A stretch of 47,813 bases of DNA from a virus: IMG/VR virus record IMGVR_UViG_3300027743_000010, positions 1-47,813 of that record. One strand, 5' to 3'. Position 1 is the stretch's first letter, and each line of letters begins with the position of its first letter. Below the pieces are notes generated by a model. That model saw only the letters and a list, made by a program, of their open reading frames with translations, was not told where the DNA came from and did not search any database. A program made the translations under genes and the position numbers. Positions 1,195 to 39,613 of the stretch are shown here, piece by piece.

Positions 1195-1336
1195 TGACAG
1201 AAGATTAATTGAAAATGTAGCATTACACATTGAGATTACCACAGTTAAGACTCATTTGTGCGCGTGTTGTTCTAGGGAATGGGAAACTAAAGAAACAGTC
1301 AATCAGCCCAAATCAAAATTGGAACCAAATAAATGA
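1157..1336 (+). CDS. Small zinc-ribbon protein
   Basis: A 59-residue frame with a treble of good signs: AGAGG eight bases before ATG 1157, stop overlapping the polymerase start as ATGA, and two cysteine knuckles. Residues 7-10 read CPHC and residues 35-38 read CACC, a spacing typical of a small zinc ribbon. The start lies inside the last codons of the cold-shock-domain gene in another frame. Translational coupling to the polymerase is likely because that gene has only a weak ribosome site of its own. A role as a replication accessory protein is inferred from position only. Confidence 0.65.
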   Translation: MTEPLKCPHCQNDDRRLIENVALHIEITTVKTHLCACCSREWETKETVNQPKSKLEPNK

Positions 1337-3810
1337 AGTACGTGCCCGGAACTGGAGCTATTGGCGCCAAGTTAATGATACTTGGCGAAGCTCCTACACA
1401 TGAAGATAACATAGCTGGTCGTCCATTCTCCGGCAGTCAAGGTAGAGAATTAACTCGGCTTCTAAAGGAAGCAGGAATTAATATAGGTGACTGTTGGCTT
1501 AGTTATGTGTCTAAGTATTCAGTTCCACCTAATCTAGATAAGAAGAAACTACCATTTCATATACGCGCCCGTGAATTCGGTGTGGATATGGAAAAACAAC
1601 TAGAGGAGTTGAGAGTTGAGATAAATGACATTAAACCTAACTGCATACTGTCTCTCGGGGGGACTGCTCTATGGGCACTGTCCGGTAAAACTAAAATTAA
1701 TAAACAAAGAGGCTCTATCATGTGGGGTATGGGCAGTAAGTTTGTTCCTACCTATAATCCCGCACATCTTATATCTCACGCTCCGGGTGGAGAAATCAAA
1801 GGTTATTTTAACAGACAAGTAATAATTTTTGATATGAAGCGGGCCTATGCGGAGTCTATGTCGGCGGATATGAATCTGCCCAGTCGCGTGTTACAAGTAG
1901 CTTCTAATTCAGGTGAACTGTACGAGTTCTTAACTAGATATAAAGATAGGAAAAAACTAAGTGTTGATATTGAAGCCGGAGGCCATTGCCTTCCTATTTG
2001 TATTGGTTTATCTTTTAATCCAAATCATGGAATGACAGTTCCATTGTGGAATAGAGATGGAATATCAACCATTCCAAATTCAGACTTAGTTAGCATATGG
2101 CAAATGCTGGCTGAAGTATTATGGGAGAAGGACATTGTTGGACAAAACTTTAACTACGATAGAGATAAAATCCGAAGATTGGGATTCATTATTCGCAGAA
2201 TCCATAGTGATACATTGCTCAAAGCCTTTGCAATTAACCCTGAACTCCCAAAGGGGCTTGCATTTCTTACATCTATCTATACCAGAGAGCCCTTTTATAA
2301 AGATGAAGGAATGTATGAGGGGAGCACTAGAGATTTATTGCTCGGATGCGCGCGTGACGCTTGTGTCACATACGAAATAGATGAAGCAATGGAACCTGAC
2401 TTAGAGGAGTTAGGTATCACCAAGTTCTATAATAATTTCCTAATGTCTTTACCTGACATGTATCTAGAAATTGAGAATAATGGGTTTCATGTAAATAATG
2501 AAACTCGAATGGGATTACTTGAAAAGTATATTAAGTGGGATGCGCGACTTGGCTATGAAATGTTTGAACTGTCAGGAGTAGACGTCAATGTTTCCTCTCC
2601 CATTCAAGTACATGCATTACTATTTGATGAATGGAAATTGCCACGTCGTAAGGGTGTCGGTGAAGAAGAACTCACCGCTCTACTCAATCTCAAAAGCGGG
2701 ATTAAAAATCCTGAGCATAGGATTTGGATTGAAAAATGTTTGGAAAGAAGAAGGGTTAAGAAAACTATCAGCACGTACTTGTTTGCAATACCGGATTACG
2801 ACGGAAAAATGCGAACTACGTGCTTTATGTGTCTCGACACGGGTCGCACAAGTACAGGCCAACAAGATCCTCCTATCAGACCATTGGTAGATATTGTAGG
2901 TAGAGGTAAGAAAGCTGATATGAAAGTCATGGGCACAGCTTTCCAAGTATTCACTAAACATGGTGATATCGGAGCTGATGTTCGTGGCATGTATGAGCCT
3001 GATGAGGGAGAAATATTCGTACAGTTAGACTCATCACAGGCTGAGGCGCGTGTAGTATTTAACTTAGCAACCGATGAAGATGCATTGGAGGCAATAGATG
3101 TCCACGACTACCATGCTCTTACTGCTAGTTGGTTCTTTGGTGGTAACGAATCTGATTACTCTAAAAAAGTACTTGGCTATGAAAGCCCAATCAGATTTGC
3201 CGGGAAGACTTTACGCCATGCGGGCCATCTTGGAGCGGGTCATAGACGCGCCGCAACAGAACTCAATACACAGGCGCGTAAATATAAAATAGACATTACT
3301 ATCAATGAGTTTCAAGCTGAACGCGCATTGAAGATATTTCATGCGAAACAGCCTAAGATACAAAAGGTATTTCATGCCCAAGTCTTTGAAGAAATTAAAT
3401 CCAGCCGAAGGCTTACAGCCCCATTACCATTCGGCATCGACGCGGAGCGAGGTGGTGTACGAATTTTCTATGAAAGATGGGGAGATGACTTGTTTCGTCA
3501 AGCTCTGGCCTATATCCCACAACGAGCCGTCACTGATAATACCAAGGCAGCTTGCATTAGAATTAAGAGATCATTCAAAGAAGCGAAAATTATTCTTGAG
3601 GCGCATGATGCACTTTTGTTCGCAGTTAGAAAAGAGTATCTCGAAGATTTCATTCCCTTAGCTAAGAAGGAGATGGAAAGGCCAATCAACTTTAAGATGT
3701 GTTCATTACCTAGACGCAGCTTAAAGATTCCATGTGATGTAGAAATTGGTGAGAACTATAGGGATTTAAAAAAATACAAATTCGAAACTGAAACAACAGG
3801 AGTGAAATGA
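1333..3810 (+). CDS. UDG-like domain fused to family A DNA polymerase
   Basis: An 825-residue replicative polymerase. Residues 12-165 form a domain of the family 4/5 uracil-DNA-glycosylase type, with GEAPTHEDNIAGRPFSG at 18-34. A 3'-5' exonuclease domain follows: VDIEAGG at 211-217 (Asp212, Glu214), NFNYDRDK at 272-279 and RDACVTYE at 341-348. The polymerase domain has motif A at 565-573 (LDSSQAEAR), an O-helix motif B around 621-636 (R..GK...H..HLGAG) and motif C at 757-763 (AHDALLF). Odd points: the glycosylase motif that is usually HP(S/A) reads NPA (142-144), the iron-sulphur cysteines of family 4 enzymes are absent, the exonuclease Tyr is not visible, and the Glu after the motif C HD is Ala760. 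SPO1-type phage polymerases also carry a UDG-like N-terminus. The domain may be a non-catalytic DNA reader here. Confidence 0.92.
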   Translation: MKYVPGTGAIGAKLMILGEAPTHEDNIAGRPFSGSQGRELTRLLKEAGINIGDCWLSYVSKYSVPPNLDKKKLPFHIRAREFGVDMEKQLEELRVEINDIKPNCILSLGGTALWALSGKTKINKQRGSIMWGMGSKFVPTYNPAHLISHAPGGEIKGYFNRQVIIFDMKRAYAESMSADMNLPSRVLQVASNSGELYEFLTRYKDRKKLSVDIEAGGHCLPICIGLSFNPNHGMTVPLWNRDGISTIPNSDLVSIWQMLAEVLWEKDIVGQNFNYDRDKIRRLGFIIRRIHSDTLLKAFAINPELPKGLAFLTSIYTREPFYKDEGMYEGSTRDLLLGCARDACVTYEIDEAMEPDLEELGITKFYNNFLMSLPDMYLEIENNGFHVNNETRMGLLEKYIKWDARLGYEMFELSGVDVNVSSPIQVHALLFDEWKLPRRKGVGEEELTALLNLKSGIKNPEHRIWIEKCLERRRVKKTISTYLFAIPDYDGKMRTTCFMCLDTGRTSTGQQDPPIRPLVDIVGRGKKADMKVMGTAFQVFTKHGDIGADVRGMYEPDEGEIFVQLDSSQAEARVVFNLATDEDALEAIDVHDYHALTASWFFGGNESDYSKKVLGYESPIRFAGKTLRHAGHLGAGHRRAATELNTQARKYKIDITINEFQAERALKIFHAKQPKIQKVFHAQVFEEIKSSRRLTAPLPFGIDAERGGVRIFYERWGDDLFRQALAYIPQRAVTDNTKAACIRIKRSFKEAKIILEAHDALLFAVRKEYLEDFIPLAKKEMERPINFKMCSLPRRSLKIPCDVEIGENYRDLKKYKFETETTGVK

Positions 3811-26446: not shown

Positions 26447-27727
26447 CTAGTCTTTCATTAATACATCTAAAGTACTCATCCCGCGCGGGATATCTTTCGG
26501 TGATTTAATCTTTCCACTAGAAGGGGTTGTGGATTTCCCATTACCAACTGGACTCTTCTTAGGAGTCGGTTCTTCTTTCTCTACAATATCATCATCATTC
26601 CTACGAGCCAAGCCGCGTAAAGCATCATTTCTGGCCTTTTTAATAACTGAAGGCAACAGTGTTTTAGCTTTGCTTAAATACGCTGACTTGATTCGATCTG
26701 TACTCTCTTTATCGAAATTCTTTTCAAATGCTTTCTCCCACAATTTATCCAACAGACCTCTAAATCGCGTATCTTTGGACATTAAATTTTCGAGAGTTTC
26801 TTTAGCATCTTTAGTTGCGTTCTTTTTTACATAATCAGTCATTGATCCCCTTGGATCTATATGCTGGTCAATTGTTGATTTCAACACATTGTCAGCTTTA
26901 GTCTGCAACTCATCTTTTACATTCTCAAACTGACCCATCACACGCGACTGTTCTTGTCTCTTGTATTCATCCTCCCTATTCTTCTCAGCAGGATTTGATT
27001 TAGGAGACAATTGTTGCGGCGGACTGAAATTCTGTGAACCAAATACGAATTGATTCAATATATTTGCGGCTGCTTGTAATGGGGCACCTTGTTCACCCAG
27101 ATTACGAGCCTCCTTCACCATCGTAATGATAGTATCTTTTACGACATTACCCAATACGTGATAATATGCCTGTTGATCGACTTTCTTTAATGCAGGAAGA
27201 TAATTATCCGCTATTTTAAGAAATGCTTCCTGACTTTCAGACTTTGCAGCCGCCAAAACATTTGAGATATCACCACTCATAATGTTTTGTTCAAACGTAT
27301 CCATTACACGCGCTTTTTCAACTGCAGTCTTAGCATCCTGAATCGTTGGTAACAACTCAGTAAACTGTTGTTCTCTGTAATATGCCTTCTCAAGATAAGG
27401 AAAATCCTTAAATAGTTTAGGATATTTAGCTAGTATCTCTTTCCTGCGAACAGGCGTAGTTAGTTCTAAATCCTCTTCTGATGGCCCTTTTAATTCTTCT
27501 TCAATCTCTTTTAATTCGTCATCTTCGTCTTCTTTGACTTCCTCATCTTCGTCTTCATCGATTGATTCAATATCTTTTCCAATCGATTTATCAGTTTTTC
27601 CAATTTCGAGGATTTCGTCTGGTTCTTTAATGTCTTCTTCATTTAGAAGCTCAAAAGTTTCAGTCTCATCACTTCCACCCGAACCACTATCTTCAGGCAT
27701 CATTAAATTATTGAATTGTCGGTGCAT
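26447..27727 (-). CDS. Scaffolding-like protein
   Basis: A 426-residue highly charged, mostly helical protein placed between portal and capsid, the normal place of the scaffold. The first 90 residues are very acidic (Asp/Glu runs); the middle contains ALKKVDQQAYYHVLGNVVKD; the C-terminus is basic and Pro-rich, ending IPRGMSTLDVLMKD. AAGGA just before the ATG at 27727 makes this the likeliest start; an in-frame ATG lies at 27739 and another at 27703. It overlaps the portal gene by 20 bases. Confidence 0.6.
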   Translation of the reverse strand: MHRQFNNLMMPEDSGSGGSDETETFELLNEEDIKEPDEILEIGKTDKSIGKDIESIDEDEDEEVKEDEDDELKEIEEELKGPSEEDLELTTPVRRKEILAKYPKLFKDFPYLEKAYYREQQFTELLPTIQDAKTAVEKARVMDTFEQNIMSGDISNVLAAAKSESQEAFLKIADNYLPALKKVDQQAYYHVLGNVVKDTIITMVKEARNLGEQGAPLQAAANILNQFVFGSQNFSPPQQLSPKSNPAEKNREDEYKRQEQSRVMGQFENVKDELQTKADNVLKSTIDQHIDPRGSMTDYVKKNATKDAKETLENLMSKDTRFRGLLDKLWEKAFEKNFDKESTDRIKSAYLSKAKTLLPSVIKKARNDALRGLARRNDDDIVEKEEPTPKKSPVGNGKSTTPSSGKIKSPKDIPRGMSTLDVLMKD

Positions 27728-30083
27728 TTTGTCCTTCATTCATTTGAACCCCAGCATTAGACTGTGGTTGTTTTTGGGGATCTCTACCTGATGGAGCCTC
27801 AGATCCCGGTGGAGGCATTATTTGAGCTTGAGCTTCTTCCATCTGTTTCTGGAATATAATATCCTTATGCATCTTCATGTGTAGAAGGACATTCTTGTAT
27901 CCATTAGGATTCTCTAGTTTACATAACCGACCCGCATCGGATACTAACCAACGACGACATATATCAGCTTCCAATTCGTGATTATCAACTTCCATATCAG
28001 CTTCAACTGATGGTACCTCTGTTGGTGGAGGGGGAGGTTGTCCCATCATCATAGCCTGTTGTTCCATCATTGGATCTGGTGGCTGCTGAATTGGCTCACT
28101 ATTGACGAGCTGTTGTATTTCTTCATACTGTTTTTGTCTATCATCTTCACCAGGAATCACATAATCATCAAGTCCAATAGCTCGCTTAAGGAATGGAATA
28201 TTCTCAGGAGTCATAAGAGTGCTCATAAGCATCTCATTATTCATCTTGAATATTTCCATTACTGAATCTTTTTGCTGATTCCAAGTGATTGGTAGATTTT
28301 CATTAGCTTCAAGTTCAATAGAACCAATCTTACCTTCAAGTTCAGCTTTACGAACGAAAACATTGATGAAATTGCCGAATTCATCTTTCTTGACCTGTTT
28401 TTCGTCGTCTTTAACTTCTTTGATATACATCGGTATAACTTTACCGAATATATCTTTCCACCAATGACTTAGCATCTTCCATGTAGTCTGTAGGCGCTGC
28501 AAGGCTTGGTTCTTAGACATGCTATATTCACTAGCAGTCCTAGAACCTGACATTTGACCACCAAATAGGCTCGGAAGAGCACCCGAAACCATTTGACCTA
28601 TTTCTTGTACTTTTTGAGCAAATGGTAATACTTCTTGACTTAAAGTAGCTGTCTTAACTTCGTAAAAGCCTTCAGATAGAGGTCGCCCAGATTTTGGAGT
28701 GGCAGGGTAGATTCCTCCCGGTATAACCTCACTATTTCGATACGAATTGAAGTTAAGAACCTTTGGATCTGCGAATGTCTGTGGGATGCCATGTTCTATT
28801 GTCTGTAGAGTTAAACTAACTAAGTCGTTCGTAATCTCCTGAACAGAAGTAAGCAGCATCCCAATAGGGTCAGAATGGATATAATCACTAAGTGGATTGT
28901 AAGTAAGAGTCCAATGATCATCCATTGCTTGATTTTCAGCAGCGACCACATGATCATCGATAACACAGATTTTCACTCCATCAGGATATAATTTCTTTAA
29001 ATCCTTTATTTCATCTTCGTCTCCGAGGATGTGATATGCGCTAGGTCTAATCCAACAATTTCTGACTGTGACATTGTGGATTGGATGTTCACCAAGATAT
29101 TGGGGGGAGGTACGGCCCCATTGCTCGTATAGATCATAGTGAGCCGATCCGGAGTCCTTAATTTTATCTTTAAGATCTGGATACTGTTCGAGGACATTTG
29201 CGTAATGTGTCTCGTATGAATAAATTAGATATGAACACTCTTTTTGATTACGTGCCCATACGGGGACTTTTACAAATAGTCCACCATATACTTCCATACA
29301 GATGCGCGACTTAGGATGTTTAGTCACTCCAACTAATCTAGTCACAGTGAATGATTGTTGTGACTTTTGTGGAATTACTTGACGCCCACATGTCTCACAT
29401 AATTCATGTTCAAATATTGGAGCTTCAGGATCGAATTCATCCTGTCTCTTTTCATCCCACAATTTAGCTGCGATTTCAGCTTCTTCAGGATCTTGTGGAA
29501 TAGCATTAACTACTTCATCACTCATCTCTGACTGACAGAATGGACAAGTGAGAATTTCGTGATCTTCCTGAATTTCCTCGTATTTCTTATCTTCGTACAT
29601 TCCATATTCTTCACTCTCCTTCGGATACACGTACATTGCAGTCATACCTTCGGTGCAATATACGAAGAGTGCGTGTACCCACAAGAGAGGAACATTATTA
29701 TGTTTGAATACTAGTTCGGCTATCTTGTCACCTGCTTTAGCAGTAACGACATCCATAGGATTATCAGCGTCGTCAGGATAACAAGTAACAGGGGGGACAG
29801 TAACAGAAAGAGCAGCAATAATAGATTCCAGATAAGCTCTAAAGATGTTAACCGGCTTGTCGTAATATGCTTGATCTGTATCCTGACCAACTCTTTCACT
29901 CTCTGGTATGCGCCAATCATGCGCCACTTCAGAATAATAAGTATGTTGAACATTTTCCCACAATAGTTTCAGTTTACGCCATTGACGAATCTGCCGATCG
30001 CGCACACCTCTATCTTCGTCGTCGAAATGATCAACAATCTGTTTAAGACACTTTTTAGTTTCGTCTTTTAGTTCTTTTTCCAT
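27708..30083 (-). CDS. Portal protein with zinc-binding insertion
   Basis: A 791-residue portal. Support: size, place between terminase and scaffold, an N-terminal helical part, SHEV-like AYLESIIAALSVTVPPV, the long stem and crown pattern, and a C-terminal barrel-like tail rich in Gln/Pro. Notable insert around residues 180-240: CPFCQSEMSDE and CETCGRQVI, two CxxC knuckles that could form a zinc site, uncommon in portals. The tail (Pro/Gln/Met rich) is probably disordered. It starts one base inside the stop of the upstream gene. Confidence 0.75.
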   Translation of the reverse strand: MEKELKDETKKCLKQIVDHFDDEDRGVRDRQIRQWRKLKLLWENVQHTYYSEVAHDWRIPESERVGQDTDQAYYDKPVNIFRAYLESIIAALSVTVPPVTCYPDDADNPMDVVTAKAGDKIAELVFKHNNVPLLWVHALFVYCTEGMTAMYVYPKESEEYGMYEDKKYEEIQEDHEILTCPFCQSEMSDEVVNAIPQDPEEAEIAAKLWDEKRQDEFDPEAPIFEHELCETCGRQVIPQKSQQSFTVTRLVGVTKHPKSRICMEVYGGLFVKVPVWARNQKECSYLIYSYETHYANVLEQYPDLKDKIKDSGSAHYDLYEQWGRTSPQYLGEHPIHNVTVRNCWIRPSAYHILGDEDEIKDLKKLYPDGVKICVIDDHVVAAENQAMDDHWTLTYNPLSDYIHSDPIGMLLTSVQEITNDLVSLTLQTIEHGIPQTFADPKVLNFNSYRNSEVIPGGIYPATPKSGRPLSEGFYEVKTATLSQEVLPFAQKVQEIGQMVSGALPSLFGGQMSGSRTASEYSMSKNQALQRLQTTWKMLSHWWKDIFGKVIPMYIKEVKDDEKQVKKDEFGNFINVFVRKAELEGKIGSIELEANENLPITWNQQKDSVMEIFKMNNEMLMSTLMTPENIPFLKRAIGLDDYVIPGEDDRQKQYEEIQQLVNSEPIQQPPDPMMEQQAMMMGQPPPPPTEVPSVEADMEVDNHELEADICRRWLVSDAGRLCKLENPNGYKNVLLHMKMHKDIIFQKQMEEAQAQIMPPPGSEAPSGRDPQKQPQSNAGVQMNEGQNAPTIQ

Positions 30084-30604
30084 TAGTATGCATGTGCTCT
30101 ATTTCGGCCTTGCTGAATCACTTGCCTAAATCTACTAGGTCGTGGTGCATCTCGCGGATCCGCGTATGGACTATTCATTGCTTGCTGATTTGGTTGACGT
30201 AAATTTGATATAATATCAAATCCTTGATCCGCCTGATTCATTCCTAAATTCTTCAAGAATCCAGTTAGTCCACCGCCTGCTTGATTAGGTTGTGGAAAAT
30301 ATGGTGGTGTCATTCCAGCATTATTATCACCAAATCCACCGCCACCAAGAATTTTACCCCCAAGTTTAGCCCCACCATACATTCCAGCAGCAGCATTAAC
30401 TCCACCCATGATTTTATTCAATCCAGATCTACTAGGTGCAACTCCAGTCTTCAAGAATTCCTGCTGATCACTTCGATCTTCTAATTTATTAGCCAATCCA
30501 CCAGTCATAGGAGCAGCCATTAATGACATGCCACCAGTAAATGGAGCTGCTACATATGGAGCCGCTTGTAGTGCGATTTGACCTAGTTTATTCCAAAATC
30601 CCAT
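30083..30604 (-). CDS. Gly-rich virion-associated protein
   Basis: A 173-residue protein: an Ala/Gly hydrophobic N-terminus (IALQAAPYVAAPFTGGMSL), a Gly/Asn middle and a basic Gln/Arg C-terminus (FRQVIQQGRNRAHAY). AGGTGAT sits upstream of the start. Located between small terminase-side genes and the portal, it may be a head-to-tail or DNA-end protein. Unknown family. Confidence 0.5.
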   Translation of the reverse strand: MGFWNKLGQIALQAAPYVAAPFTGGMSLMAAPMTGGLANKLEDRSDQQEFLKTGVAPSRSGLNKIMGGVNAAAGMYGGAKLGGKILGGGGFGDNNAGMTPPYFPQPNQAGGGLTGFLKNLGMNQADQGFDIISNLRQPNQQAMNSPYADPRDAPRPSRFRQVIQQGRNRAHAY

Positions 30605-30607
30605 ATA

Positions 30608-30778
30608 TCACCTAAGTGGAATGTCAGCGACTCCGAAGGCCCGCATCAAGTAAAGGATCAAAACAATAACAGCAATCACATATATTACATTCTTGAACAT
30701 CGGAGCCATTGGCACATATGTCGTGATGGCGTATACCAAGAATCCAACGATAGCGATAACGAGGATGAGAGTGATCAT
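30608..30778 (-). CDS. Small two-helix membrane protein, holin candidate
   Basis: A 56-residue protein with two hydrophobic helices (about 2-18 and 31-46), a YVPMAP turn and a short polar tail. Small membrane proteins with a Y(V/I)PM turn near the terminase are widespread in environmental phages. The start overlaps the stop of the 50-residue basic protein (ATGA). It could be a holin or another membrane factor; no lysis-enzyme gene is adjacent, so the holin call is weak. Confidence 0.55.
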   Translation of the reverse strand: MITLILVIAIVGFLVYAITTYVPMAPMFKNVIYVIAVIVLILYLMRAFGVADIPLR

Positions 30779-30927
30779 TTCTTACTCCAATCTTTCCTCT
30801 TCTTCGATGATGTTTTCTCAACGAATTCTCTCGCTACATCAGGAGATGGCCCGACACCTTTATTAGGTTTCTTACCGTGAGCTATCATTTGCATGAACCG
30901 ATATTGTTTAGCGGACTTTGCTGGCAT
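30775..30927 (-). CDS. Small basic MPAKS-type protein (DUF3008-like)
   Basis: A 50-residue basic protein opening MPAKSAKQYRFMQMIAHGKK, followed by PSPDVAREFVEKT and a Lys/Arg-rich end. It looks like the small DUF3008-type proteins (MPAKS start, PS-x-E/D-VA motif) found near phage terminase genes. Its start overlaps the upstream gene by 20 bases, and its stop overlaps the next start as ATGA. Function is unknown. Confidence 0.6.
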   Translation of the reverse strand: MPAKSAKQYRFMQMIAHGKKPNKGVGPSPDVAREFVEKTSSKKRKDWSKK

Positions 30928-31237
30928 CTTTTACGCCCAATTCAGTTTCAAGTTCTTCAATTTCCTGAACTTTGTCGCGCATCAATCTAGCTTTTTCTCT
31001 GTCTTCAGCTTCTAACATTTGCTGTCTGACGCGCCAAGGAACATACTGTGCCTTAATAGGCTGATGTTCTTCTGTACTAATTGGTTCAGCAGATTGAATG
31101 GGTGGAGCCAATGCACGCTGTAGAAGCTCTCTCCGCTCCCGGCTACTCTCATCGAGTTGCGCGCGAAGTACCTCACAAACAGGACATACACTTGGCTCCA
31201 ACCCAAGTAGTTTTCTAAAGAATTCATTGAATATCAA
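30908..31237 (-). CDS. Small coiled-coil protein with CxxC motif
   Basis: A 109-residue protein with CPVC near its N-terminus (18-21) and two helical segments (LRAQLDESSRERRELLQRAL and AEDREKARLMRDKVQEIEEL). It begins with TTG at 31237, overlapping the terminase stop (ATTGA), with GGAAGG a few bases upstream; no ATG in that frame fits. It could be a terminase or portal cofactor; unknown. Confidence 0.55.
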   Translation of the reverse strand: MIFNEFFRKLLGLEPSVCPVCEVLRAQLDESSRERRELLQRALAPPIQSAEPISTEEHQPIKAQYVPWRVRQQMLEAEDREKARLMRDKVQEIEELETELGVKDASKVR

Positions 31238-32823
31238 TGTCTATACCTTCCAACCGGTTTAACATTATCATCCGACTCTGATTCAAGTTTCTCAGAACTT
31301 CGATAGAATGCAGTCCAATTATTCGTTAGACTTAATTGATTGGATAATTCTTCTTGTTTTTGAATTCGTTTGAATTCTTGATTCGCGTCGTCGAAGTATC
31401 CTTCTGCCGCGTCAACTATGTATCTAAGCCCGTCAATAGGATCGTCCCCATCGAATTCTGCAATGTCCTCTGCCGGTTTATTGCCTTTAGGTTTGTCATA
31501 TGAACATGCTTTGATAGCCGATACAAGGACGGGACACGCATCCTTGAATATCTGCAATTTGGGGATATTTGATTCTTCATCTTGCGGATCGAATGACTTA
31601 AGGTACGATTTGTATTCAGCCAATCCGCGATTTCGCAATATCCACATTGCATATTCTTCATCGTATATCATTTCCTCAGTAGGAATGACTAGCCTTTTTT
31701 TCCATCGCAGGTATTCATGTATTAAAATCTTCCCCGCAACACGGCTTCCAGGCGAGTTATTAGATAACTCAATTGGCTGGTCGAGTTCAGATTCGATCTG
31801 TTGTTGGATTGTATGTTCCTGTCCTCGCTCCTGAGAAGCGGATTTACAGAATCGAATAAGTCGTGGATGTTCTCTATCGATGTATTGTTTAACGAGTGGC
31901 GCCCAATCGGCGATTTTCGTTTTGACCCAATGTTGTTCACGATAGATATACAAGCGTTTAGAAGGTGAGATTGCTGCATATCCAATCCATGTCATCGCCG
32001 CGAATCCCCAATCACCAATTACAATGCGCGGCCACCATTCAGGTATATCGAATGGTTCGCAGATGTGATTAGCATTCTCTGGTTCATCTACGTGATGCCT
32101 ATCTCTAAATTCGGTGAATACCTGCCCAAGATACGAATCGAAATCGCCATATAACTTTGCATTTTTCTCGGCTTCAGGTAATGCTTCGAGTGATTTCTTA
32201 TAAGTCGGATCGATGTGTGGATTGTCGGCTTGTGTTGCGAATATCATCATTCGCTTATTACCACCCTTGCCAACTAATATTTTTCCTCCCGCTTTCCACG
32301 GTTTGACGAATCTATTGTTAACCCATGTATGCCCAATTCCACCTGGCATTCCTGCTGTTCTGATGATGGCAGGAAGGTTTGGATCTCCCGATCGTACGCG
32401 AGTGAATCCAATATATAAATACATGTATTCAGTGAAGGATGTAATTTCATCCGGGGTGAATAGATTGATCTCCATCGAGTCGTATTGATGTACATCATCT
32501 TCATTCTCACAGTGACCTAACATGATCATCGCTCCACTAGGGAACGTCCAGATCATTTCGGTTTTATTAAATGTTGCGCCGAACCTAGTGTACAATTCCT
32601 TTGATCGCGGTACAATTTCATTACGTAGTTCAGGGAAAGTGCGTCTAAGAAAGACTTGCTTAAACTTAGGATTTTCATGCCATTTATGTACGATGGCGTA
32701 GTAAAGGAGCAGATTAGATTTTCCACTACCCGCTCCTCCAAGGAATGCCGCTTCTTTGATAGATGGCGGTATTGAGAGGAATTGTTCCTGCTTTTTTGAT
32801 GGTTTCCACTCATTAGCTGCCAT
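31234..32823 (-). CDS. terL: Large terminase subunit
   Basis: A 529-residue packaging motor. Walker A GGAGSGKS at 29-36, Walker B LFTPDE at 121-126, a TAGMPG coupling-type motif at 156-161, and an RNase-H-like nuclease with IGDWGF (Asp271) and a late acidic DGDDPIDGLRY segment near 455. It cuts and translocates genome DNA with the portal. The gene has its own strong promoter (32903-32931) and a structured leader. Its 3' end overlaps the next gene. The type of DNA end (pac or cos) cannot be read from the sequence. Confidence 0.93.
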   Translation of the reverse strand: MAANEWKPSKKQEQFLSIPPSIKEAAFLGGAGSGKSNLLLYYAIVHKWHENPKFKQVFLRRTFPELRNEIVPRSKELYTRFGATFNKTEMIWTFPSGAMIMLGHCENEDDVHQYDSMEINLFTPDEITSFTEYMYLYIGFTRVRSGDPNLPAIIRTAGMPGGIGHTWVNNRFVKPWKAGGKILVGKGGNKRMMIFATQADNPHIDPTYKKSLEALPEAEKNAKLYGDFDSYLGQVFTEFRDRHHVDEPENANHICEPFDIPEWWPRIVIGDWGFAAMTWIGYAAISPSKRLYIYREQHWVKTKIADWAPLVKQYIDREHPRLIRFCKSASQERGQEHTIQQQIESELDQPIELSNNSPGSRVAGKILIHEYLRWKKRLVIPTEEMIYDEEYAMWILRNRGLAEYKSYLKSFDPQDEESNIPKLQIFKDACPVLVSAIKACSYDKPKGNKPAEDIAEFDGDDPIDGLRYIVDAAEGYFDDANQEFKRIQKQEELSNQLSLTNNWTAFYRSSEKLESESDDNVKPVGRYRH

Positions 32824-33975: not shown

Positions 33976-34218
33976 TTAGTCTGACTTGAGTGTAACGATT
34001 GGTGTGCCAACAGTGGCACGTAGAAATGCAGCGGTTACTCTACCCGCTCCTCCAGTTAATGTAACAGTTGATTTAGTGGCGAAGTCAATTACATTCGATT
34101 GCTCGAATGCTGCACCAGCTGAATCAGTGTATAGAGTTACAGCTTTACCCGGCAATGCATACACTCTATTAGTTACTAGAGTCCATGCCGGCCCCATCGT
34201 CAGGAGTTCAGTTGGCAT
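33976..34218 (-). CDS. Small beta-rich virion protein
   Basis: An 80-residue protein with a regular strand pattern (ALPGKAVTLYTDSAGAAFEQ, then STVTLTGGAGRVTAAFLRAT). GGAGG precedes ATG 34218. It overlaps the upstream gene by 11 bases. It resembles small head or tail surface proteins, without an identifiable family. Confidence 0.5.
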   Translation of the reverse strand: MPTELLTMGPAWTLVTNRVYALPGKAVTLYTDSAGAAFEQSNVIDFATKSTVTLTGGAGRVTAAFLRATVGTPIVTLKSD

Positions 34219-35027: not shown

Positions 35028-35429
35028 TTACTTGGGTTCAGCAGTACCCGGTAGACTATTGTCTGGAACTAGAATGAGTCCCTGACATGCGAGCCACTTC
35101 ACTACATACTTCTTACCGGGACGTGGCAAATCATTATCTGGCCTACCACCCTGACCCGGTAGAGAATTATCTGCACCAGGCTGCTGATCTGGAAGCCCCT
35201 GATCTGGACGTGTAGGATCAAAAGGAAATACAGGTAGCAATGCGATGTGTCCACCACCGGGCAATGCATTACCGGGATGACCACCTCCGTAGATGGGGCC
35301 AGTAGATGGATAATTTCCACCACTAGGCAAACTATTATCTGGCCTACTCCATGCAGGTTGACCATATCCCGGATCTACTGCACCAGCGGTGTCAAGGAAT
35401 GTGATGACTGCTAATCGACCATTTGCCAT
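35028..35429 (-). CDS. Pro/Gly protein with PDNSLPG repeats
   Basis: A 133-residue protein with at least six imperfect copies of a seven-residue unit of the form (R/A/V)(P/A)DN(S/D)LPG: RPDNSLPSG, HPGNALPGG, RPDQGLPDQ, GADNSLPGQ, RPDNDLPRP and VPDNSLPG. The C-terminal part has a strand-rich segment (KKYVVKWLACQGLIL). AGGAG precedes ATG 35429. Repeats like these occur in virion proteins of soil phages; a surface or linker role is likely. Confidence 0.55.
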   Translation of the reverse strand: MANGRLAVITFLDTAGAVDPGYGQPAWSRPDNSLPSGGNYPSTGPIYGGGHPGNALPGGGHIALLPVFPFDPTRPDQGLPDQQPGADNSLPGQGGRPDNDLPRPGKKYVVKWLACQGLILVPDNSLPGTAEPK

Positions 35430-35453: not shown

Positions 35454-35497
35454 AAAAAATAGGATACGCGCCACTTATTGGATGACACGTATCCTAT
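35454..35497 (-). terminator. Strong intrinsic terminator
   Basis: On the minus strand ATAGGATACG pairs with CGTATCCTAT, and the stem can continue inward by about six pairs including G-U pairs around a CCAATAA loop, giving a stem of about 16 pairs (35459-35474 with 35482-35497). It is followed by TTTTTT. It lies directly after the VPDGG-CTERM gene and should end the first two-gene transcript of the minus-strand block. Confidence 0.75.
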
Positions 35498-35510: not shown

Positions 35511-36233
35511 CTACATCTTTGATTTAACTACACTGAGTCCAAACATACTGAGACCCAACATAGCGATAGTAAGTCCACCATCAGGAACTGAAGGAGGTTC
35601 ATCATCTGGTGGTTCATCATCGCCCGGAGGAATAGTTCCACCAAGTCCGATTAAAAAGAGCTTATCCGGCCCATCGTTGTACATGTTGGGGCCACTACCT
35701 GCAAGTCCAAATGTAAATGCAATCTTAGTGGTGCCAGCAGGTGCGCTGAATGGAGTAAGTGGTGAGCCAGCGGTGAGAATGTAATCCGCGTATCCTGTAC
35801 CGTTTGCATTGGATGGAACCAGTTGTGCAGGAGCGAATGAATATGAACCGATATTTGATCCACCGAAATTATAGAAATTGACTGTTAGATCAGTCAACAA
35901 CTGTGCAGTCGATGTGTCATTAATGTCAAGACCTAGATAGAAATTGGCCCCAACATTAGATGCGAACAAAGCCAATTCACCCGGTGCATCACCATAGATG
36001 TTAACAAGTGGATTCGGATTGAATGGATCTCCACCACCTGTATCACCTACAGTTACCCATCCTGCAGGATTCTGATTACATCCAGATCCACCAGGCCCAT
36101 AGAATACGCAGGGATTGTTGATGGTGTTCTGATATGTCTGATCGGGTGCCGTATAGATACTGATTGGATTAGCTGATGCTACTGATGCAATTAGTGCAAT
36201 CAGTAAAGTGAGTACCGGGACTTTGTAGCGCAT
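35511..36233 (-). CDS. Secreted VPDGG-CTERM (exosortase-type) protein
   Basis: A 240-residue protein. It begins with a signal peptide (KVPVLTLLIALIASVASA), then a mature domain with paired Cys and a beta-rich region, a Pro/Asp linker (PPGDDEPPDDEPPS) and a final VPDGG, a hydrophobic helix (LTIAMLGLSMFGL) and a basic end (KSKM). This tripartite end is the VPDSG/VPDGG form of PEP-CTERM sorting signals, processed by host exosortases in Verrucomicrobia, Acidobacteria and relatives. AAAGGA favours ATG 36233 over 36239. Putative roles (inference): cell-surface display for superinfection exclusion, biofilm or EPS change. It sits between the small terminase and a strong terminator. Confidence 0.75.
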   Translation of the reverse strand: MRYKVPVLTLLIALIASVASANPISIYTAPDQTYQNTINNPCVFYGPGGSGCNQNPAGWVTVGDTGGGDPFNPNPLVNIYGDAPGELALFASNVGANFYLGLDINDTSTAQLLTDLTVNFYNFGGSNIGSYSFAPAQLVPSNANGTGYADYILTAGSPLTPFSAPAGTTKIAFTFGLAGSGPNMYNDGPDKLFLIGLGGTIPPGDDEPPDDEPPSVPDGGLTIAMLGLSMFGLSVVKSKM

Positions 36234-36260
36234 TCTCATTTTCCTTTGAGGGATTGACTC

Positions 36261-36866
36261 TTATGAGTCCGAACTAGACACATCGATGACATCGAATGAT
36301 TCTTCTTTACGGAATTGTGGTGCAAAGATTACGAACTGAACTGATTTATCTGATTGATTTGAATCAACAACTTTCTCAGGTTCGAGATTTTTGATTACTA
36401 CTGACATATCTTTCGCTATGGCTGATAGATCTTTCGCATCAGTGTAATCTAATTTCTCTTGTGTAATTGAACTGAGTGATTGGCCTAATACTTTAGACGC
36501 GCGACGTATAGCTCGTTCCCTAGATTTAGATATGTGAGATGATATCGACTTACTAGGTGTATCATATGATTTGGTGGAGGTCGATCCGTTCGCGTATGCA
36601 GATACAGATGAAGGAGATATGCCAAACATCCCAGCTAATCCAAGAGCTGATTGTCGTCCATTGAGTACTGCATCTTCACCTATGATTTGACGTAATGAAT
36701 CCGGGACATTTACATCACCTTCATTACGTCCCTTGCTAGGCTTATCGATGATAACTACTTCACTAGTCGACGTATCAGGTGTATGAGACTCTTTATTAGA
36801 CGCGCGTCCACCTAACTTATTTAATTCGTCATTAAATTCTTCGTCTGAGACTACACCGATAGGCAT
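36261..36866 (-). CDS. Putative small terminase / HTH DNA-binding protein
   Basis: A 201-residue protein. Residues about 60-110 form a helix-turn-helix (ALGLAGMFGISPSSVSAYAN), followed by a basic helix (KSRERAIRRASKVL) and a helical end with AIAKDMSVVIKNLEP. Small terminases have just such an N-terminal DNA-binding domain plus helical oligomerisation region. It is the first gene of the minus-strand block, but it is separated from terL by about 3.4 kb. A transcription regulator is the alternative. Confidence 0.5.
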   Translation of the reverse strand: MPIGVVSDEEFNDELNKLGGRASNKESHTPDTSTSEVVIIDKPSKGRNEGDVNVPDSLRQIIGEDAVLNGRQSALGLAGMFGISPSSVSAYANGSTSTKSYDTPSKSISSHISKSRERAIRRASKVLGQSLSSITQEKLDYTDAKDLSAIAKDMSVVIKNLEPEKVVDSNQSDKSVQFVIFAPQFRKEESFDVIDVSSSDS

Positions 36867-38897: not shown

Positions 38898-39152
38898 ATG
38901 GCTAAACATCCACACAAATTACTGTTAGTTAACAATAAAACATGGAAATGCGCACTTGAGGGGTGCTCATTCTTTGTACATCTTGGACTTCAGCATCTAC
39001 TAATAGGGAAACACGCGACATGTTGGGATTGTGAGGAAATGTTCTCAGTCAGTGAGAATAGTTTACTTGAACCTAAACCACGATGTAGCGATTGTAAAGG
39101 AATCAATCCAGATGCAATCACTCAACTTTTGAAAGATAAAGGATTACTATGA
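38898..39152 (+). CDS. Zinc-finger protein of early region
   Basis: An 84-residue protein with three cysteine groups: CALEGC (18-23), CWDC (42-45) and CSDC (63-66). This gives up to six Cys for one or two zinc ions, plus aromatic residues around. GAGGAG precedes ATG 38898. Nucleic-acid binding or protein contact is likely. It is coupled to the downstream endonuclease gene by an ATGA overlap. Confidence 0.6.
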   Translation: MAKHPHKLLLVNNKTWKCALEGCSFFVHLGLQHLLIGKHATCWDCEEMFSVSENSLLEPKPRCSDCKGINPDAITQLLKDKGLL

Positions 39153-39613
39153 AAGATACAGATATCGCATGGTGTGCTGGATTCTTTGATGGTGAGGGAC
39201 ACGTGTCATATCATCGAAGTCCACCATCGAAAACAGGAACTGTATCACCACAATTATATGCAGTTATACCACAAGCATCAGAGAACATCGAAGTATTAGA
39301 ATTCTTTCAATCAGTCATTGGATTCGGTAACATTAAGGGGCCATATCCAATGCCTAGTGGTAAACCACAACATAGATTACACTATGGAGTAAATGAAGTT
39401 CAAGCATTATTCATTATACTCAAACCATATCTGAGAGCAGATAAGACACGCGATTTTCAGAAAGCGTTAGCATCATATTGGACACATGATCCATCAATCA
39501 ATGAAGATGATCAGATTAAAACAGTTAAACGAAATAAGAAGAAAGGATGTCCTGAATGTGGAGATAAGGAATGGAATGGATTATTATGTTTTAAATGTGG
39601 TTATATAATGTAG
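39149..39613 (+). CDS. LAGLIDADG-type homing endonuclease with zinc tail
   Basis: A 154-residue protein. Residues 5-18 (DIAWCAGFFDGEGH) match the LAGLIDADG helix motif (usual form: WLAGFFDGEG), so a single-motif enzyme that acts as a dimer is expected. The centre contains LEFFQSVIGFGNIKGPYP and LFIILKPYLRADKTRD, in the order of the usual endonuclease fold. The C-terminus adds CPECGDKEWNGLLCFKCG, a zinc ribbon, that probably strengthens DNA binding. It is free-standing: no intron or intein is evident in the window. Confidence 0.75.
   Translation: MKDTDIAWCAGFFDGEGHVSYHRSPPSKTGTVSPQLYAVIPQASENIEVLEFFQSVIGFGNIKGPYPMPSGKPQHRLHYGVNEVQALFIILKPYLRADKTRDFQKALASYWTHDPSINEDDQIKTVKRNKKKGCPECGDKEWNGLLCFKCGYIM

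Follow-up and report, generated by a model that had tools for sequence, protein, structure and literature searches.

Gene anatomy and flanking genes

The 242-aa protein described here is encoded by a soil phage, of which a stretch of 47,813 nucleotides (the window) was analysed. Its gene lies on the minus strand together with the following features, which are given with the basis of each assignment.

35511..36239 including the stop codon, minus strand: gene of a putative secreted protein (242 aa) with a VPDGG (VPDSG-type) C-terminal sorting signal; open reading frame and translation, homologues in four other viral lineages
36171..36239, minus strand: predicted Sec signal peptide MRMRYKVPVLTLLIALIASVASA, residues 1-23; read by eye, aligned leader in every full-length homologue
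35631..36170, minus strand: conserved beta-rich body, approximately residues 24-203; 69-78% identity to the homologue bodies, AlphaFold2 models of low confidence
35592..35630, minus strand: Pro/Asp/Glu spacer PPGDDEPPDDEPP, residues 204-216; translation, similar acidic/Pro spacers in homologues
35514..35588, minus strand: C-terminal sorting signal, in which VPDGG precedes a hydrophobic segment and a basic end, residues 218-242; PF18205 match
35459..35497, minus strand: intrinsic terminator directly 3' of the gene; 16-pair stem followed by TTTTT, fold z-score -4.1
36261..36866, minus strand: conserved helix-turn-helix (HTH) gene, upstream border of the insertion slot; 53-73% identical in relatives spanning it, weak HTH/repressor matches and one terminase-small-subunit match
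35028..35429, minus strand: gene of a Pro/Gly-rich protein (133 aa), bordering the slot downstream; follows the HTH gene directly in relatives such as L042, L075, L093 and L105
34414..34956, minus strand: IPT/TIG-domain gene, which borders the slot downstream where a relative lacks the Pro/Gly gene; PF01833 31.6 bits, present in slot-spanning relatives

The gene is a real open reading frame running from 36239 to 35511, and its first ATG is preceded within a few bases by AAAGGA. An earlier note, made from the sequence alone, had placed it at 35511-36233, which held only in part since 36233 is the second in-frame ATG (MRMRYK...). Its observation of a signal peptide, a Pro/Asp spacer, VPDGG, a hydrophobic helix and a basic tail held, all parts being present in the translation. 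The leader ends in ...ASVASA and qualified as a Sec signal peptide by reading of the window protein and all full-length homologues and by a simple charge and hydrophobicity rule, without a dedicated predictor. The terminal sequence of the protein is VPDGGLTIAMLGLSMFGLSVVKSKM. By eye and without a transmembrane predictor, no further long hydrophobic stretch was found between signal peptide and tail, and the body was predicted to be beta-rich. This anatomy is shown; that the tail is functional is inferred.

The structure prediction proposed in the earlier note as a check was run and yielded two AlphaFold2 models of the body, both predicting a beta-sandwich with low confidence (pLDDT 53 and 60) and giving only weak beta-sandwich or lectin-like matches. 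These weak fold neighbours were dominated by carbohydrate-binding beta-sandwiches, namely ConA-like lectins, CBM22/CBM35, Fbs sugar-binding domains and phage depolymerases. All matches fell into the background range, which the tool attributes to a common arrangement, and the best Z-score (8.0) was obtained for seipin. A sequence-profile search of the PDB with the body gave no match. Because the models are of low confidence and the fold scores lie in the background range, glycan binding by the body, as predicted from these models, is a possibility that serves merely as a lead.

The strong terminator claimed by the earlier note held, with a 16-pair stem and T run for which none of 200 shuffled sequences was equally stable (z -4.1). 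The start of the 242-aa gene lies 21 nt past the HTH gene, and no promoter-like site was found just upstream. Since only 21 nt separate the two genes, they are probably co-transcribed, with the inferred transcript ending at the terminator. The further claim of regulation apart from the virion genes held in part, as the terminator separates the pair of HTH and secreted-protein genes, not a single gene, from the downstream virion genes.

The HTH gene (36261-36866) is kept in about 50 relatives, and profiles do not separate a small terminase from a regulator. We dropped the label of small terminase for it, as the profile evidence leans toward a generic HTH protein, but the assignment is undecided. 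The Pro/Gly-rich protein (35028-35429) contains repeated DNSLPG-like units. The position of its homologue varies among relatives, where it follows the HTH gene, the TIG gene or the terminase (L050).

Profile evidence and exchange of the tail on a conserved body

In hmmscan the window tail matched Pfam PF18205 (VPDSG-CTERM) over residues 217-242 with 20.8 bits (E 3.4e-4; cut-off 25), and in a scan of the whole record it reached 25.1 bits, barely over this cut-off. The score against NCBIfam TIGR03778 was 16.2 bits (cut-off 22). By itself the profile match of the window protein is borderline, yet it is beyond chance, because a 71%-identical homologue (L001) passes PF18205 (26.3 bits vs 25), three further body homologues (L009, L007 and L008) exceed the cut-offs of PF07589 (PEP-CTERM) and TIGR02595, and scans of 38 viral records were specific. 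When PF07589 and PF18205 were run over these whole records, over-cut-off matches were confined to the genes of this study. Thus, the tag is no common false positive in this material. Curated Pfam cut-offs were passed by the homologues L001, L007, L008 and L009 as well as by three proteins from the insertion slot described below (L031, L032 and L061). A tblastn search with the tail only gave no match, the query being too short to be informative. The window protein is best called a protein that works like a VPDSG/PEP-CTERM protein, its formal profile membership being borderline and that of the homologues clear.

The likeness to substrates of the exosortase (EpsH) family (PF18205, PF07589, TIGR03778, TIGR02595) comprises the signal peptide, a divergent body without known homologues and, at the extreme C-terminus, a short motif, a transmembrane helix and a basic end (PMC1569441, PMC12188702). 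In contrast to these substrates, the gene in the window is phage-encoded, in a phage without detectable exosortase, and is exchanged at a phage locus beside head genes. The word 'phage' does not occur in the paper of Haft 2006 (PMC1569441). PepA of floc-forming bacteria (NCBIfam NF033554), a flocculation-associated PEP-CTERM protein, shares the tail class. Partial matches to this family were obtained for homologue L009 (22.5 bits) and slot protein L031 (31.2 bits), but these scores are far under the family cut-off of 80 and the window protein had no match.

Scans of IMG/VR recovered the body in four other viral lineages, namely L001/L002/L003 (contigs with the same gene), L004/L009, L007 (a 130-kb contig) and L008 (47.7 kb), with whole-protein identities to the window of 59-71%. 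Their tails carry VPDGG (L001), VPEPGS (L009), VPEPAS (L007) and VPEPAT (L008), so that this body is combined with VPDGG in two lineages (the window and L001/L002/L003) and with PEP-CTERM in three (L004/L009, L007 and L008). Bodies of the window and the other four are 69-78% identical, whereas tails of unlike type share just 4-8 of 25 positions. The body is thus conserved while the sorting tag that it carries is exchanged for one of another type. With two tail types on one body, an incidental motif is hard to defend.

This bears on a rival explanation, according to which the product is an exported protein anchored in the inner membrane without any exosortase, e.g. for lysis or for blocking of injection, and the VPDGG/PEP motif is incidental. 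In its favour, the window tail is under the hmmscan cut-off, a host enzyme is undemonstrated, and phages do encode envelope proteins that block injection, such as SieA of P22 (PMC11436027). Against it, seven related or co-located proteins pass PF07589 or PF18205 with the full layout of motif, helix and basic end, one body carries tails of two exosortase classes, and the shared slot carries the tag on unrelated bodies. We consider this rival unlikely. The reading of the earlier note as a phage-encoded protein sorted in the PEP-CTERM manner is supported, having survived the profile search (borderline for the window, clear for the homologues) and having gained further support from the exchange of VPDGG and PEP tails and from other PEP-CTERM proteins recurring at the same site in related phages. 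The sorting itself and the host enzyme are still inferred.

The carriers of the body gene differ in their surroundings. In L006, the contig of L003, the gene lies between terminase and portal in a phage with P22-type portal, scaffold and coat; in L007, which has a Mu gpT-like head protein, it lies near the major head gene; and in L009 it precedes a terminase-like gene by a few kb. What L008 has in common with the window is chiefly replication genes (39% for the UDG-polymerase, 35% for a primase-like gene, and some short weak matches), and its body gene adjoins them in an orientation opposite to that of the genes that follow. The fusion of a uracil-DNA-glycosylase (UDG) domain to a family A DNA polymerase is found at 1333-3810 of the window (PF03167 and PF00476) and at 2218-4734 of L008. 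Two carriers also encode signal-peptide proteins of unknown function near the PEP-CTERM gene (L009:3375-3809 and L007:7027-7500, minus strand).

The G+C content of the gene tracks each carrier (0.45 to 0.67; GC3 0.34 to 0.91), and the gene is therefore likely to be a long-standing resident. Among the body homologues pN (0.23-0.32) is well under pS (0.50-0.91), which indicates amino-acid constraint, with the caveat that synonymous sites are near or at saturation in many pairs. The window protein had no homologue among 50,697 GenBank phages, and PHROGs contain no family for its body. A pattern scan of 84,980 bacterial and archaeal genomes revealed no true homologue, although distant relatives would escape such a scan. 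Its sole match, NGTGYADY inside a long restriction-helicase-like frame, was rejected as spurious, and 294 genomes of the phylum concerned contained no body homologue, just PEP-CTERM-like tails.

An insertion slot in terminase relatives

By means of the large terminase of the window, which gave 233 matches in IMG/VR, 80 relatives (L029-L108) with 68-98% identity were collected. The slot was defined as the stretch from the HTH gene to the Pro/Gly or TIG gene, and 50 of the 80 span it. In 47 of these 50 it is empty and the flanks are adjacent, with 7-295 nt between the matched ends, versus 832 nt in the window. The window gene thus is an extra gene between genes that are adjacent in relatives, as required of a moron or accessory gene. 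The slot is filled in the remaining three relatives (L032 with 874 nt, L061 with 993 nt and L031 with 1603 nt), each of which has, immediately downstream of the HTH gene, a gene for a protein with a signal peptide and a PEP-CTERM tail. These three tails scored 24.1, 27.4 and 28.3 bits against a Pfam cut-off of 20.7. Including the window, all four inserts of more than 300 nt carry the tag.

The body of the window protein is missing from the slot proteins of L031, L032 and L061. Those of L031 and L061 are akin (38% over 92 aa) and that of L032 shows no relation to them, so that the four slot proteins represent three unrelated body families. Hence, site, export signal and tag class recur while the body does not; this shared use of one insertion site by different PEP-CTERM proteins is shown. 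For the slot proteins of L031 and L032 no homologue was found in the 50,697 GenBank phages. On the large-terminase tree, at least 3 gains or losses are required to account for the distribution of tagged inserts, and in L030, at 90% the closest relative in which the slot is visible, it is empty. Three of the four carriers belong to one clade, and the insertions are therefore not four fully independent events. The earlier note's proposal to look for the same gene in related phages met with a divided result: the terminase relatives spanning the slot lack the window body there, but 3 of these 50 have other tagged proteins, and the body itself was found in the four other lineages.

Directly after its PEP-CTERM gene, L031 encodes a 309-aa protein (L031:6436-7365) whose start resembles the 80-aa gene at 33976-34218 of the window. 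This protein contains a ConA-like/LamG_3 lectin domain (PF13385, 80.4 bits).

A second rival holds that the genes are passive passengers, host PEP-CTERM genes caught by chance or assembly chimeras, without a role for the phage. Chance capture is plausible in so far as some genomes encode many, divergent PEP-CTERM proteins (Haft 2006, PMC1569441), and the presence of a tagged protein is patchy (4 of 51 slot-showing phages). Against it, the body occurs with a constrained sequence in five viral settings, among them a phage with a P22-like portal, one with a Mu-gpT-like capsid and phages with the UDG-polymerase. Furthermore, neither the pattern scan nor the genomes of the one phylum, which had tails only, provided a bacterial homologue, and the 4/4 tagged inserts speak against this rival as well. 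Since flanks are shared on both sides and the finding recurs in independent contigs, we regard an assembly chimera as very unlikely. Constraint and recurrence speak against chance capture of a functionless gene, patchiness being expected for accessory genes. As a whole, we consider the passenger explanation highly improbable.

A third rival regards the product as a component of the virion or tail, a glycan-binding beta-sandwich decoration whose signal peptide and C-terminal tail serve another purpose. It can be supported by the location next to head or packaging genes in several phages (the window, L006 and L007) and by the depolymerases among the fold matches. However, a Sec signal peptide and a C-terminal membrane helix would take the protein out of the cytoplasm, where heads assemble. 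In L008 the gene is situated beside polymerase and primase genes and opposite to the following genes, and it is absent from 47 of 50 close relatives spanning the slot. This rival, too, seems very improbable.

Putative sorting by a host exosortase

Exosortase systems are chromosomal machinery of environmental Gram-negative bacteria and are tied to exopolysaccharide, biofilm and flocs. PEP-CTERM proteins enter via Sec, are retained by the C-terminal helix, are processed by exosortase and end up outside the cell, often linked to exopolysaccharide (PMC1569441, PMC12188702, PMC11980579). The window, the contigs with the body gene and the relatives searched, some of which may be fragments, gave no exosortase match (PF09721), while a bacterial metagenome-assembled genome searched alongside did match. 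A host enzyme would therefore be needed. The claim of the earlier note that the phage places a protein on the host surface through the host's exosortase is an inference consistent with this result; both the host enzyme and the actual sorting are inferred.

The explanation we favour, with moderate confidence, is that of an accessory ('moron') gene whose product is sorted to the surface by the host exosortase, most likely altering the polysaccharide layer or blocking other phages; sorting, function and host are inferred. The use of host sorting by these phages is suggested because tails switch type on one body and unrelated bodies are tagged at one slot. The phage product would be exported via the Sec route, and its C-terminal helix would keep it in the inner membrane until, by analogy, the host exosortase cuts at VPDGG and hands it on to the surface of the cell or to its polysaccharide layer. 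At this site the body may bind or remodel surface polysaccharide, which is the most likely of its inferred roles, and thereby mask receptors or change the outer layer of the infected cell. The benefit would most likely be exclusion of competing phages, with effects on aggregation or release as alternatives. In this lineage, the slot, which lies past the HTH gene and ahead of the first virion-associated genes, would be a place where different exosortase-substrate proteins are swapped in. Against this explanation stand the hmmscan score of the window tail under the cut-off, fold scores no better than background, the lack of experimental data and the unidentified host. A bolder reading, to which we give rather less credence, is that the phages give each slot body the tail type that suits the exosortase of the current host and that host sorting re-coats the cell, in which case the tail type would report host range.

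Isolated phages are just distantly similar to the window phage. The host is unidentified, and no tRNA was found in the window; that the host possesses a matching exosortase is inferred. Neither tyrosine integrase nor serine recombinase families turned up in the window or in the records searched, an absence that is provisional as fragments are possible. Lysogeny by integration is probably absent in the lineage, and an effect in the course of lytic infection therefore fits better than superinfection exclusion in the lysogenic state.

Phage morons that alter the cell surface (Cor, SieA, Gtr) act in superinfection exclusion and receptor conversion (PMC11436027). The window gene resembles them as an extra gene between conserved genes, with a product predicted to be envelope-directed and, in the window, a terminator directly after it. 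It differs in the C-terminal exosortase tag, in that the lineage yielded no integrase or serine recombinase family, and in that interference is undemonstrated. In the literature searched, which left out preprints and most subscription journals, we found no report of a phage-encoded PEP-CTERM protein or of a phage slot for exosortase substrates. Tail and export anatomy belong to a known protein class and surface-altering morons are a known kind; within this literature, the slot is what is new. If the explanation is true, phages recruiting exosortase machinery with their own cargo would represent a new route of viral remodelling of the host surface, in bacteria for which few genetic tools exist. 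It predicts exosortase-positive hosts with the matching tail type and effects on adsorption and aggregation. The body conserved across unrelated phages provides a concrete protein to express and assay.

The window (27708-32823) and the relatives L029-L108 belong to a large uncultured group of phages of about 45-49 kb. Their terminases are less than 60% identical to every GenBank phage record matched, the best reaching about 28-30%. At 39149-39613 the window encodes a protein beginning ...WCAGFFDGEGHVSYHR, which by its look, without a profile, resembles a LAGLIDADG-type homing endonuclease.
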